A DNA stretch of 64,000 nucleotides from Arthrobacter agilis (GCF_030816075.1 NZ_JAUSXO010000001.1:1054001-1118000); one strand, 5' to 3'. Shown: positions 19,585-24,848, counted from the first letter of the stretch. Notes: generated from the letters alone by a model not told the origin. Numbers and translations: made by a program.

Positions 19585-20148
19585 TCACGGTCTACCCGGA
19601 GGTCGGCCCTGCCCCTCGAGGGGGGAGGGCTTCGTCCCCAGAAGCATGTTCAGTCCCCAGCCGAGGACGGTGATGAAGACGATGGCCCCCGCCATGGCCA
19701 GCAGCTGTTCGACGCCGGTCAGGATGCCGAGACTCACGATGAGGGTTGTCGCACCGGCCGGCGGGTGGGGCCGCCTGGCCCAGGTCAGCACCAGGGTGGT
19801 CACGGCGACCGACAGTGCTCCCGCCAGGAGGTGGGCGGCCGTCAGGCCGCCGACGGGAACCGACGGGTCGTCCTGCAGACCGAACCCGTAGAGGCATGCC
19901 ACCCCGGCCAGGAGCCCGACGCCGTGGCCGATCAGGGCATTGGACGGTCGGGAGGACTGCTCCCGTGGCGATTCGAAGAACAGCATCACCGTCGGACCGA
20001 GGCTCGGGAACAACCACGGGGCGTGGAGGGCGAGACCGATGGCCCCACTGGCCGCCAGGACGACGAGCGACAGTATCGCCGCGTACAGACTCCCGCCGAG
20101 GCGGCCGCCCGAGTCGGCGAGACGGGCGTGGAGCGATTTCTTCGTCAT
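19585..20148 (-). CDS. HPP family integral membrane protein
   Basis: A 187-aa membrane protein with about four transmembrane segments and the HPP family landmarks LGPTVMLFFESP and RRPHPPAGATTLI (the His-Pro-Pro motif). Characterised relatives have been linked to nitrite transport, but in this setting the substrate is open. AAGGGAGA precedes ATG at 20148. It follows the molybdoenzyme genes by 128 nt on the same strand. Confidence 0.85.
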   Translation of the reverse strand: MTKKSLHARLADSGGRLGGSLYAAILSLVVLAASGAIGLALHAPWLFPSLGPTVMLFFESPREQSSRPSNALIGHGVGLLAGVACLYGFGLQDDPSVPVGGLTAAHLLAGALSVAVTTLVLTWARRPHPPAGATTLIVSLGILTGVEQLLAMAGAIVFITVLGWGLNMLLGTKPSPLEGQGRPPGRP

Positions 20149-20276
20149 CAGGTCTCCCTTCGATCCGGTGGGCCCGGAGGACCCGACCCGCGAGCTGCGG
20201 ACCGCGGGGCGGGCGCTCGGTGCTGGAACGGCAGGCCGGGGTGAGGGCGCCGCCGGCAGCACAGGCCCCCGACCCT

Positions 20277-20738
20277 TCAGTCCGCGACGATCAGGGCCTG
20301 TGGTGCTGCCTGTTTCATGCGGGTCTGCAGCCATCGGAGCTGGGTCGCGGTCTGCCCGTCGCAGTCGGTCACGACGTCCAGCAGGTCGGTGTCCCTCAGT
20401 CCCTGGGCGGCCTGCTTGACCATGGTCCACGTGATGTCGACAAGGCTCGCGAGGAGGTAGAGGTCCTGCAGGTCCCGCAGGAGGCCGATAGGCCCGGACC
20501 GCGTCTCGGCCAGCCCGTCCGCGTGGAGCCGCTCCGGTCCACCGTCGTCGTCGACCTCGCCGTACCGCTCGATGATCGGGGCGAGGGCCCGTTGGTGCTC
20601 ATCACACTGTGCGGCAAGGGCCTGACAGAGGAAGTACACGTCCGGTTCGTGGCCGTGCCCGTCGGACACCTGGCGGAAGGACGCGGCGAGAGTGCCTTCG
20701 GATCTGTGCAGCAGCCCGAGGTAGACGGGAAGTTTCAC
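20277..20738 (-). CDS. Small helical protein coupled to the molybdoenzyme
   Basis: A 153-aa, largely helical soluble protein without a family I can name. Glu14, His28/His30/Glu31 and Glu47-His48 are spaced as in ferritin- or hemerythrin-like bundles, but this is only suggestive. Three Cys (38, 45, 129) are present. GTG at 20738 has AGGAGG upstream and overlaps the TGA of the oxidoreductase (GTGA), so the two proteins are made together; a chaperone or electron-transfer partner role is a reasonable guess. Confidence 0.7.
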   Translation of the reverse strand: MKLPVYLGLLHRSEGTLAASFRQVSDGHGHEPDVYFLCQALAAQCDEHQRALAPIIERYGEVDDDGGPERLHADGLAETRSGPIGLLRDLQDLYLLASLVDITWTMVKQAAQGLRDTDLLDVVTDCDGQTATQLRWLQTRMKQAAPQALIVAD

Positions 20739-23215
20739 GAGTGTTCCTCCTGCGACGCGACCATCGGCGGATCGACCGGAGCGATGGTCTCCTCGGCCTG
20801 GGCTGCACGCCCACCGACCGTGGGCAGCACGGGTCCGCGTCGTCCTGACCGCCCGACGGGGCGCGAGGCCGTGGTGGTGGGCGCCGGGGACGGGGCGACG
20901 CCGTCGGCGACCTTCCGGACCCGGACGGCCGCGTTCTTCAGGACGGGCTGTTTCGAGACGGGATCCCAGTCGGTGAGGGTGAGCTCGTTCGCGGCCCGGT
21001 CCTCGCTCCGGTCGTCGTCCCAGTAGCCGTAGTGGAACGGGGCGAAGATGCTGCCGTCACGGATCCCGCTGACCCGCACGGGAGCGGTGATGTAGCCGCG
21101 CCGGGATTCGACCCGCACGATGTCGCCTTCACCGAGGTCGTGGGCCTCGGCGTCCTTGACGGACATCTCCACCCACACATCGGGCGCCGCTCCGTCGAGC
21201 TGCGGGGACCTGCCGGTCTTGGTGCGGGTATGGAAGTGGTAGACCGTCCTTCCCGTCGTCAGGCGGAAGGGGTAGTCATCATCCGGGGTCTCGTGCGCCG
21301 GGTGATAGGCGGCGGTCTTGAAGATCGCCCGCCCCGCCGGGTTGTTGGCCCTGTAGGTCTCCGGGCCCACCGTGGCGCCGGTCAGCAGGTCATGCCCGTA
21401 GGTCTCGCAGTACTCGGGGTCGGTGGGAAACACCCCGTCCCGGTACAGGCGCACCACCCCGTCGGGGTGGTCCTCGTTGCAGGGCCACGGAACACCGCTG
21501 CCGCCGCGGAGCTTCTCATAGGTGAGGCCCGTGTAGTCGCAGGGCCGGCCGCGCGTGCAGTCCTTCCACGCGGCGAACGCGTCCTCGGGTCCGCTCCAGT
21601 CCAGCAGCGGTGTCCCGTCGCGCCGGGTGAAACCCATGCGTGCGGAGTAGTCCAGGAAGGTGTCGAGATCGCTGCGGGCCTGGCCGGGTGGGTCCACCGC
21701 CTTCTCGGACAGGTGGACGGTGCGGTTCACATTGGTGAAGGTCCCGGTCTTCTCTCCCCATGCGGCGGCGGGCAGGACGACGTCGGCGTACTGGGCGGTC
21801 TCGGTCAGATAGAGGTCCTGCACCACCAGGAACAGGCCGTCGGTGTCGAGGATCTCCCGGATGCGCGGCAGTTGGGGCATGGACACCGCAGGGTTCGTCG
21901 CGGAGATCCACAGGAACTCGATGGAGCCCTGTTCGACGTACCGGAAGATCTGCAGGGCGTGGGTGGGTGGGGCCCAGTGCGGGATGACCACCGGATCGAC
22001 GTTCCAGAGGTCCGCGAGCTCCTGGATATGCGCGGGGTTCTCCCAGTTCCGGAAGCCCGACAGGTCGCCGTCGGCCCCGCATTCGCGGTTGTTCTGCGCC
22101 GTGGGTTGCCCGTTCATCTGCAGGATCCCGCATCCGGGCCTGCCGATGAGGCCCCGGAGCAGGTGCAGGTTGTTCACCGCGCAGGCGGACGCCGTGGCCT
22201 GGGAGGACTGGTAGAAGCCCTGCAGGACGGTCGACAGGACCCGGTCCGATGTCCCGAAGATCTCTGCCGCGCGGCGCACGTCGTCGGCGTCCACGCCGCA
22301 TGTCTCCGCGACGGCCTCGGGCGTCCACGGCTCGACCGCGGCGCGCAGTCCGTCGACGTTCACGGTGTGCTGTTCGATGTAGTCCTCGTCGATCCAGCCG
22401 TTGCGGAACAGTTCGCGGACCAGTCCGTGCATCAGTGCCAGGTTCGTGCCCGGTTTCACCGGCAGGTGCACCTCGGCATGGCGGGCGACCTCGGTGGATC
22501 GCGGGTCCACGCACACGAGCCTGGGCCTGTCCGGCCCGGCGAGGCGGTCCAGGACCCGCATCCACAGCACGGTCTGGGTCTCGGCCATGTTGTGGCCGAA
22601 CAGGAACATCGCATCGCACTCGTCGATGTCGACGTAGCTGCCCGGCTGGCCGTCCGATCCGAAGGACTCCTTCATGGCGGTGGCCGCGGTCGCCGTGCAC
22701 AGCCGGGTGTTGCCGTCCATGTGCGGGGTGCCGATGCCGGCCTTCCCGACGATGGCCTGGGCGTAGTACTCCTCGAGGAACAGCTGCCCGCTCGTGTAGA
22801 AGCCGTGGGACAACGGACCTCGCTCGTCGAGGAGCTCCTTGCTCCGGGAGACGATCCGCTCCATGGCGGTGTCCCAGTCCGACTCCACCAGCACACCGTC
22901 CTCCCGGACCAGGGGTCTCGTGAGGCGGTCCTTGTTGTCCACGCCCTGCCAGCTCGCGAACAGGCCCTTCGGTCCCAGCCGGCCGTGGTTCACGACATCC
23001 ACGGACCGGCCACGGACCCCGACCATGGATCCGTCCTTGACGGCGATGTCGATACCGCACCCGTTGCTGCACAGCACGCACGCCGACTGCACCCACCGGT
23101 CCACCGCGGATTCCTGGACGCCCTCGGCAAGAACCTGGTCCACCCGCACCGGCCACCGCTCGTCACGCGCGTAGGGGGTCCGGGTCCCCCAGATCTCAGC
23201 GATACGGTCGACCAT
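20735..23215 (-). CDS. Molybdopterin oxidoreductase (formate dehydrogenase/nitrate reductase-like)
   Basis: An 826-aa member of the DMSO-reductase superfamily. An N-terminal iron-sulfur segment has Cys46, Cys49 and Cys53 (CVLCSNGC), but the position of the usual fourth ligand is Gly81 in NHGRLGPKG. Cys173 in NTRLCTATAATA is the probable molybdenum ligand. The cofactor domains and C-terminal beta-barrel (residues about 640-760) are complete; the last 65 residues are an Ala/Pro-rich tail. GAGGGG precedes ATG at 23215. No membrane or diaphorase subunit is nearby. Divergent from a formaldehyde dehydrogenase-like gene, which fits formate oxidation. Confidence 0.85.
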   Translation of the reverse strand: MVDRIAEIWGTRTPYARDERWPVRVDQVLAEGVQESAVDRWVQSACVLCSNGCGIDIAVKDGSMVGVRGRSVDVVNHGRLGPKGLFASWQGVDNKDRLTRPLVREDGVLVESDWDTAMERIVSRSKELLDERGPLSHGFYTSGQLFLEEYYAQAIVGKAGIGTPHMDGNTRLCTATAATAMKESFGSDGQPGSYVDIDECDAMFLFGHNMAETQTVLWMRVLDRLAGPDRPRLVCVDPRSTEVARHAEVHLPVKPGTNLALMHGLVRELFRNGWIDEDYIEQHTVNVDGLRAAVEPWTPEAVAETCGVDADDVRRAAEIFGTSDRVLSTVLQGFYQSSQATASACAVNNLHLLRGLIGRPGCGILQMNGQPTAQNNRECGADGDLSGFRNWENPAHIQELADLWNVDPVVIPHWAPPTHALQIFRYVEQGSIEFLWISATNPAVSMPQLPRIREILDTDGLFLVVQDLYLTETAQYADVVLPAAAWGEKTGTFTNVNRTVHLSEKAVDPPGQARSDLDTFLDYSARMGFTRRDGTPLLDWSGPEDAFAAWKDCTRGRPCDYTGLTYEKLRGGSGVPWPCNEDHPDGVVRLYRDGVFPTDPEYCETYGHDLLTGATVGPETYRANNPAGRAIFKTAAYHPAHETPDDDYPFRLTTGRTVYHFHTRTKTGRSPQLDGAAPDVWVEMSVKDAEAHDLGEGDIVRVESRRGYITAPVRVSGIRDGSIFAPFHYGYWDDDRSEDRAANELTLTDWDPVSKQPVLKNAAVRVRKVADGVAPSPAPTTTASRPVGRSGRRGPVLPTVGGRAAQAEETIAPVDPPMVASQEEHS

Positions 23216-23588: not shown

Positions 23589-24848
23589 ATGACCACGGCA
23601 CCCTACCCGCAGCCTCGGGCTGCTGAAGGAGTATGCATCGTGAAGGCTCTCGTATGGCACGGCGAAGGCGACATCCGGTTGGACACCGTCGATGATCCGA
23701 CGATCCTCGATCCGAACGATGCCATCGTGCGGATCACGCGTAGCGCGATCTGCGGCACCGATCTGCACTTCATCCGCGGCACCATGGCGGGCATGAAGGA
23801 GGGGACCATCCTCGGCCATGAAGCGGTGGGGGAGGTCACGGCCGTGGGCGCGGCTGTCCGCCGGTTCGCACCGGGCGACCGCGTGGTGGTGTCCTCGACC
23901 ATGTCCTGCGGCGTGTGCTGGCAGTGCCGGGCCGGCCACACCGCGCAGTGTGACACGGCGAATCCGAACGGGCCGCAGGCCGGCACCTGCTTCTTCGGCG
24001 GCCCGGAGACCACCGGGCCCGTCAACGGGCTCCAGGCCGAGTACGCGCGCATCCCGTGGGCCTCGAACACCTTGACGGCGCTGCCGGAGAACGTCAGTGA
24101 CGAGCAGGCCATCCTGCTGTCGGACATCTTCCCGACGGCCTGGTTCGGCGCCGAACTGGCAGGGGTCCGCCGCGGCGACACGGTCGCGGTGTACGGCGCC
24201 GGCGTCGTCGGGCAGTTCGCGATCGCCTCCGCTTTCCGCCAGGGTTCCTCACGGGTCTTCGCGATCGACGGCGTGGAGACCCGCCTCGTCCAGGCGCTGG
24301 ACCAGAACGCGGACGTCGTCGACTTCAACCGCGAGGATCCGGTGCAGGCGCTGATGGATGCCACGCTGGGCGTCGGCGTGGACGCGGTGATCGACGCCGT
24401 CGGAGTGGACGCGCAGCGCCCGTCCTCGGGGCCCGCGGCGGCGGACAGCGAGCAGCAGGCCGAGCAGTTCGCGCGGGAGGTCGCCGAGGTGGCCCCGAGG
24501 ACGAACATCCAGGGGGAGAACTGGGTACCGGGTGACGCGCCGTCCCAGGTGTCCCAGTGGAGTGTGCAGACCGTCCGGAAGTACGGCCGCATCGGCATCA
24601 TCGGGGTCTACAGCCCCGCGATGATGTCCTACCCGATCGGGCAGGCGATGAATAAGAACCTGACCATCCGGATGGGCAACTGCGACCACCGGTCCGTGAC
24701 CCCGCCGCTGCTGGACCTCGTCGCATCCGGCGTCTTCGACCCGACCCGGTTCATCACCCAGCACGAGCCGATCACCGATGTCGTCGACGCCTACCTGACC
24801 TTCGACCGGCGCGAGGAGGGCTGGCTCAAGACGGTCCTGACCACGTAG
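23589..24848 (+). CDS. Zinc alcohol dehydrogenase, formaldehyde dehydrogenase-like
   Basis: A 419-aa class III-like medium-chain dehydrogenase. Catalytic zinc ligands in ICGTDLH and GHE; structural zinc in CGVCWQCRAGHTAQC; Rossmann GAGVVGQFA. The insert at about residues 275-330 is the hallmark of glutathione-independent formaldehyde dehydrogenases. Two starts are possible: ATG 23589 behind GAGGAGG, or GTG 23640 behind GAAGGAG, the latter giving the family-typical start VKALVWHGEGDIRL. With the divergent formate dehydrogenase-like enzyme it could carry formaldehyde to CO2. Confidence 0.85.
   Translation: MTTAPYPQPRAAEGVCIVKALVWHGEGDIRLDTVDDPTILDPNDAIVRITRSAICGTDLHFIRGTMAGMKEGTILGHEAVGEVTAVGAAVRRFAPGDRVVVSSTMSCGVCWQCRAGHTAQCDTANPNGPQAGTCFFGGPETTGPVNGLQAEYARIPWASNTLTALPENVSDEQAILLSDIFPTAWFGAELAGVRRGDTVAVYGAGVVGQFAIASAFRQGSSRVFAIDGVETRLVQALDQNADVVDFNREDPVQALMDATLGVGVDAVIDAVGVDAQRPSSGPAAADSEQQAEQFAREVAEVAPRTNIQGENWVPGDAPSQVSQWSVQTVRKYGRIGIIGVYSPAMMSYPIGQAMNKNLTIRMGNCDHRSVTPPLLDLVASGVFDPTRFITQHEPITDVVDAYLTFDRREEGWLKTVLTT

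Follow-up and report, generated by a model that had tools for sequence, protein, structure and literature searches.

In this work, we are describing a lineage of molybdoenzymes in which the cysteines of the N-terminal Fe-S site disappear stepwise, from four in nitrate reductases and formate dehydrogenases (CCCC) to three and a glycine (CCCG), then to none, until finally the Mo site is lost too, and whose members are almost always encoded next to a small protein of predicted ferritin-like fold. The pair studied lies in a 64,000-nucleotide stretch of Arthrobacter agilis DNA (GCF_030816075.1, NZ_JAUSXO010000001.1:1054001-1118000; hereafter the window), which sits in a 3.86-Mb actinobacterial genome whose nearest relatives (Arthrobacter agilis, 87%) place it in the family Micrococcaceae. 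We consider it probable that the pair represents a two-subunit cytoplasmic Mo oxidoreductase, carrying a [3Fe-4S] cluster in the type to which the window enzyme belongs (type A) and no cluster in its sister type (type B), with the small partner as a subunit. In most enzymes of the superfamily an N-terminal Fe-S cluster links the Mo site to the cell; within this one lineage, this Fe-S "wire" has been removed in ordered steps in living, selected genes.

The enzyme gene (20735..23215, minus strand) runs from an ATG at 23215 to a TGA ending at 20735 and encodes 826 amino acids. The frame is open upstream as far as 23545, with relatives conserved only from the ATG at 23215, and a GGAGG-type ribosome site stands upstream of both the enzyme and the partner starts. 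The product is a molybdoenzyme, predicted to bind bis-MGD, of the MopB/DMSO reductase superfamily, NapA/Nas/Fdh clade, with the common fold and with Pfam matches above the cut-off to Molybdopterin (1.5e-50), Molydop_binding (1.7e-27) and Molybdop_Fe4S4 (2.3e-10). Desulfovibrio NapA (2jim, 1.4e-116 in a PDB sequence search) was the best solved relative, and formate dehydrogenases came next in Pfam, PDB sequence and fold searches. The AF2 model (pLDDT 80.5, good overall, poor in the cofactor loop 368-390) matched NapA 2v45 with a TM score of 0.79-0.90 and gave a Foldseek E-value of 1e-63 to NapA. No twin-arginine signal was seen in the N-terminus MVDRIAEIWGTRTPYARDERWPVR, and the best reading of the sequence is a cytoplasmic oxidoreductase with a predicted bis-MGD cofactor and a permanent helical subunit. 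The genome of the window encodes only one other protein with a Molybdop_Fe4S4 domain.

The codons of the altered Fe-S site, Cys46, Cys49, Cys53 and, at the fourth ligand position, Gly81, occupy 22973..23080 on the minus strand (VQSACVLCSNGCG...NHGRLGPKG), with Lys83 and Gly84 just downstream. Position 81 is a cysteine in the outgroup and in the PDB relatives of the enzyme. The original prediction, drawn from the window alone, had pointed to these three cysteines and to the glycine in RLGPKG, and the alignment bears it out, C46, C49, C53, G81 and G84 being invariant across 77 type-A relatives. Another conserved cysteine near residue 81, named in advance as a finding that would count against that prediction, was not seen in the alignment of the 77; the only conserved Cys, Ser or acidic residue up to 10 positions away from 81 is Asp73. 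A substitute ligand near position 81 was consequently rejected, with no conserved Cys or Ser there and with Asp73 conserved to the same degree in type B. Cys306 is invariant but distant in sequence from position 81.

The comparison of this site covered 149 sequences, including four CCCC outgroup enzymes, and the family counts derived from it are not independent, since two routes led, for some of the sequences, to nearly identical genomes. Type A (CCCG with Gly84) accounts for 77 of them. Another 62 form type B, a large actinobacterial sister clade without any cluster cysteine and with intact Mo-site residues, in which position 46 is Ser, Ala or Thr, position 81 is Gly, Asp or Glu, and H49, D53 and D84 are invariant. 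A small branch of five sequences (type C, SGDD-type; loci L203-L207 in genomes G329, G347, G479, G212 and G280, about 50% identity) has S, G, D/E, D and E at positions 46, 49, 53, 81 and 84, and the single remaining sequence, a Gloeothece copy, is broken ahead of the motif. Mixed cysteine states were not found among the 149: the three cysteines are either all kept or all gone. K83, C173, GQP and R377 are retained in types A and B. Type C has lost GQP and Arg377 and is disturbed at the Cys173 position, so its five members are probably not ordinary Mo enzymes any more; they may be cofactor-free descendants. The partner is retained in all three types, in type C with insertions.

The family is spread through Streptomyces, Mycobacterium, Micromonospora and Arthrobacter and extends to other phyla, under the database label of nitrate reductase. 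Beyond Actinomycetota, type A occurs in Hymenobacter, Deinococcus and Halomonas (60-64% identity) and on a plasmid of Staphylococcus saprophyticus (42%); the Gloeothece copy (61%), also carried on a plasmid, retains Gly81, its cysteine region not being recovered in frame. Some genomes, e.g. Arthrobacter ISL-85, hold types A and B together, which makes the two comparable in one organism.

For the order of the losses, trees were built with the motif columns excluded and were rooted on the CCCC enzymes. The number of state changes on the tree is the minimum, with Gly at the base, the cysteine-less clade arising once and type C nested within type B. Support for the cysteine-less clade is SH-aLRT 85 and 91, below 95, and the exact base of the tree is less sure because S. 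saprophyticus and the outgroup rows form long branches. As the minimum of state changes suffices, polyphyletic loss of the cysteines was rejected, at that level of clade support.

At the Mo site, Cys173 (codon 22697..22699, minus strand) aligns with the Mo-ligating cysteine of NapA (RLCMAS) and of HDCR FdhF (RLCHAP) and is conserved in all type-A and type-B sequences. The residue that follows it is Thr174, in place of the Met of nitrate reductases or the His of formate dehydrogenases, and at position 368 an Asn stands instead of the Thr found in nitrate reductases or the Arg found in formate dehydrogenases. The GQP motif and Arg377 match nitrate reductases. Judged by these residues, the enzyme is nitrate-reductase-like with neither signature complete, since Thr174 and Asn368 are altered while GQP and Arg377 are of the nitrate reductase type. 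Classical formate dehydrogenase was rejected as an identity, the catalytic His and Arg of HDCR FdhF being absent and Thr174 and Asn368 standing in their places; the formate dehydrogenase model TIGR01591 gave 441 bits against a cut-off of 666, and that of arsenite oxidase, TIGR02693, 138.6 against 359. Our best guess for the substrate is an oxyanion or an oxo-transfer substrate.

The partner gene (20277..20738, minus strand; 153 amino acids) begins with a GTG that, as had been noted before, overlaps the TGA of the enzyme gene, by 4 nucleotides, and the same -4 overlap is found in most loci. In the genome collection the partner directly follows the enzyme in 73 of 80 loci. Among 395 class-level genomes the enzyme is present in 61 and the partner in 68, with both in 59 (Fisher 7e-58, a value that ignores phylogeny). 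Fusions of the partner to the C-terminus of the enzyme occur in Halomonas KO116 and Streptomyces BHT-5-2. With such adjacency, fusions and co-occurrence we rejected the reading of the partner as a mere neighbour. The original prediction had asked whether Gly81 and the partner gene always go together, and would have been undone by absence of the partner from most enzyme genomes; Gly81 holds in 77 of 77 type-A sequences and the partner is found in 59 of 61 enzyme genomes. The compact two-component protein that it proposed is credible, because the partner almost always co-occurs and is sometimes fused, and fusion and synteny support association of the two proteins without showing a complex. Considered as a whole, the earlier interpretation is partly supported; the cysteine-less sister clade, the adjoining HPP gene described below and the alteration of both active-site signatures had not been part of it.

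The association has exceptions. The two genes are not adjacent in several Cryobacterium, in one Kocuria and in A. agilis UMCV2, where the partner lies far off, at G010:C1:2774927. The plasmid-borne relative of Staphylococcus saprophyticus (L145, 5434-8409) is CCCG, has an unrelated 181-aa protein upstream and no ferritin-like partner. Since the partner is missing from the Kocuria, several Cryobacterium and S. saprophyticus enzymes, it is not universally required. Conversely, nine genomes have the partner only: in four a truncated or broken piece of the enzyme lies beside it, and in five, of the 68 with a partner, it is an orphan with no enzyme adjoining (L209, L210, L213, L214 and L216). In A. 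agilis UMCV2 (L040 and L083) the end of the enzyme sequence differs, with Ns in L083, possibly because the 3' end of the gene has been rearranged.

The partner is predicted with confidence to be a four-helix bundle (AF2 pLDDT 92.5), in keeping with the ferritin-like spread of residues that had first drawn attention to it. Its topology is that of ferritins, and Foldseek returned XCC3681 (3hiu, TM 0.81), YciE (3ogh, TM 0.76) and bacterioferritins; all partner E-values were 0.007 and above (>0.001), so the fold class is clear and homology is not proven by this search. No named family was found for it in NCBIfam; in Pfam some members give weak, sub-threshold matches to DUF2383 (2e-5), Ferritin (7e-4) and DUF892. 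E14, H48, D89 and Q133 are conserved. In the alignment the two ExxH motifs of a di-iron set, which go with two further acids, are replaced by C/S45xxH48 and Q133xxW136, and a full ferritin di-iron centre is unlikely because QxxW stands in place of the second ExxH and the Glu of the first is absent. The conserved residues may form a single-metal site. The partner thus resembles YciE/DUF892, DUF2383 proteins and bacterioferritin in predicted fold, and differs from them in having no pair of ExxH motifs.

The explanation that we favour is as follows. The pair would be a conserved two-subunit lineage beside nitrate reductases, its proteins forming a stable soluble complex. In the first subunit Cys173 would be the ligand of Mo-bis-MGD, within a pocket like that of nitrate reductases, and a single loss at the root of the lineage would have removed the fourth cysteine of the N-terminal Fe-S site. 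In type A the three remaining cysteines would bind a [3Fe-4S] cluster, most likely by analogy with AioA, and single electrons would be relayed between Mo and a carrier via the conserved Lys83 and the pterin. In type B the three would have been replaced together and electrons would pass to Mo directly; since the replacements (S/A/T, His and Asp) are joint, type-B enzymes very probably work without a cluster. The second subunit, a ferritin-like bundle, would stay bound in a structural or donor-docking role, shaping or docking at the electron-entry face; the sequences, their conservation, the co-occurrence, the fusions and the order of the losses are observed, whereas this role, the electron path and the [3Fe-4S] cluster are inferred. 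Because cluster-less members still carry the partner, its role is not Fe-S assembly or repair. A bolder version, which we hold to be very unlikely, makes type B an active, Cys-liganded, cluster-free enzyme whose ferritin-like subunit is itself the electron entry, via the residual E14/H48/D89/Q133 site or a bound cofactor; if true, this would add a previously undescribed architecture to the molybdoenzymes, with the three-Cys protein of the window as an intermediate stage.

As to the cluster itself, the best reading of the sequences predicts [3Fe-4S], or an open-site cluster, for type A and none for type B. Four cysteines for a [4Fe-4S] cluster, as in NapA, NasA and NarB, are present in neither, with Gly81 in 77 of 77 type-A sequences and none of the four cysteines in type B. 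AioA carries [3Fe-4S] with a Cys-X2-Cys-X3-Cys-X70-Ser arrangement (PMC3758308), and such a cluster is known in AioA and IdrA (PMC3758308, PMC10100899); our enzyme shares with AioA and iodate reductase IdrA the CxxCxxxC motif and a non-Cys fourth position. AioA differs in having no protein ligand to Mo and a Rieske partner, where our enzyme keeps Cys173 and a four-helix partner. An ordinary relay through a [4Fe-4S] cluster with one iron on water or a non-Cys group, as in the open site of aconitase, would fit the strict retention of the three cysteines in native spacing and of the relay Lys83. It is nevertheless doubtful, given that [3Fe-4S] is the cluster of the AioA/IdrA lineages, whose fourth position is likewise not a cysteine, and that Asp73, the one conserved candidate ligand close to 81, is no less conserved in type B. 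That the losses mark decay of a gene losing its function is the least probable reading of all, and for types A and B it is largely refuted. The loss of the Mo-site motif in type C speaks for it, as do a few frameshifted copies, in genome G026 and in Vreelandella; against it stand dN/dS values indicating purifying selection in every type (about 0.1 in A, 0.04-0.18 in B, 0.15-0.27 in C) and the invariance of the replacements H49, D53 and D84. For the window enzyme against its relatives dN/dS is about 0.10, on which ground a pseudogene was rejected, and this value, together with the invariance in 77 type-A relatives and the recurrent -4 overlap, shows that the altered Fe-S site is not a matter of chance.

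Databases name the enzyme as a nitrate reductase, and an additional one, detoxifying or respiratory for example, would be consistent with NapA as nearest solved structure in both sequence and fold, with the shared Cys ligand, GQP and Arg377, and with HPP neighbours whose family includes nitrite transporters (PMC4137279). We consider this unlikely, as the nitrate-reductase-typical Met beside the Mo-Cys and the Thr at 368 are both changed and the curated equivalog cut-offs are missed by far (NasC, 398 of 1100 bits; NAPA, 340 of 930). Moreover, a separate four-Cys NasC adjoins a nitrate-type MFS transporter and NirB elsewhere in the genome; the enzyme was rejected as the assimilatory nitrate reductase, and with this canonical cluster present it is not needed for nitrate assimilation. 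The partner could instead be a dedicated maturation chaperone for cofactor insertion, with a role like that of NarJ, TorD or NapD: it is small and all-helical, it is encoded directly with the enzyme like many redox-enzyme maturation proteins, and no other chaperone gene is near. To this, too, we give a minor chance, since in two lineages partner and enzyme form one fused protein, the fold search for the partner points to ferritin-like and not TorD-like proteins, and type C, despite the loss of its Mo-site motif, retains the partner.

Among known systems, NapA, NasA/NasC and NarB share with our enzyme the fold, domain set, Mo Cys ligand, GQP and Arg377; the family departs from them in its three (type A) or no (type B) Fe-S cysteines, in Met to Thr beside the Mo-Cys and Thr to Asn368, in the helical partner and in a conserved N-terminal extension. 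The Mo/W formate dehydrogenases (FdhF, HDCR FdhF, ForC) belong to the same clade and have the same fold and Cys ligand to Mo, whereas their His beside the Mo-Cys and Arg before GQ are Thr174 and Asn368 here. ForCE combines a catalytic MopB protein with a small non-cofactor helper subunit and lacks both a classical FeS subunit and a membrane subunit (PMC8808070), a composition that our pair recalls; its helper is, however, a DUF1641 subunit, ForC keeps its Fe-S clusters and oxidises formate, and none of 44 partner members matched DUF1641. In DorA-type enzymes, which are Ser-liganded, the Fe-S cluster has been lost (PMC10100899).

TorA and BisC are likewise Ser-liganded Mo-bis-MGD enzymes without an Fe-S cluster, on another branch. 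DorA, TorA and BisC thus work without an N-terminal cluster, as predicted for type B, which is Cys-liganded and not Ser-liganded. In the open-licence literature we found no description of the enzyme-partner pair, nor of any Cys-liganded lineage combining stepwise cluster loss with a ferritin-like subunit; papers that treat M. smegmatis nitrate reductases and the GlnR regulon name other molybdoenzymes, and a Helios Arthrobacter drought transcriptome holds nothing on the enzyme gene. If our reading is true, the way in which a Cys-liganded Mo enzyme works without a cluster becomes directly testable, an unnamed ferritin-like family gains a function and a frequent nitrate reductase annotation is corrected.

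Directly after the pair lies a gene for an HPP-family membrane protein (19590..20160, minus strand; PF04982, 6.8e-20, 71.7 bits against a cut-off of 27.2), probably in the same operon. Of 95 loci scanned, 33 have an HPP profile match close to the pair, among them loci of Halomonas, Gloeothece, Curtobacterium and type-B Micromonospora; it recurs across phyla (loci L061-L149), at times upstream of the pair (Micromonospora), at times downstream. For a plant HPP protein, a role as candidate nitrite transporter has been reported (PMC4137279). A conserved multi-gene operon was rejected: the partner alone is constant, HPP is frequent and other neighbours vary, often being of stress type (catalase, DUF3618, GAF-ANTAR, named from sequence).

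Several further observations concern single loci. In two copies, L056 (G026:C44) and L148 (a Vreelandella sulfidaeris plasmid), the enzyme is interrupted by stops or frameshifts, these being either pseudogenes or sequencing errors. On the Curtobacterium plasmid D40 (L149, 8481-11487) the enzyme, partner, HPP, an NTP transferase, DUF6457 and a molybdopterin-binding protein stand in a row, so that by annotation the pair there looks to travel with genes resembling those of Mo-cofactor synthesis. In the window a divergent gene (23589-24848, plus strand) encodes a zinc-dependent alcohol dehydrogenase that resembles glutathione-independent formaldehyde dehydrogenase, a relative of which is present, in no fixed position, in 14 of 81 loci.
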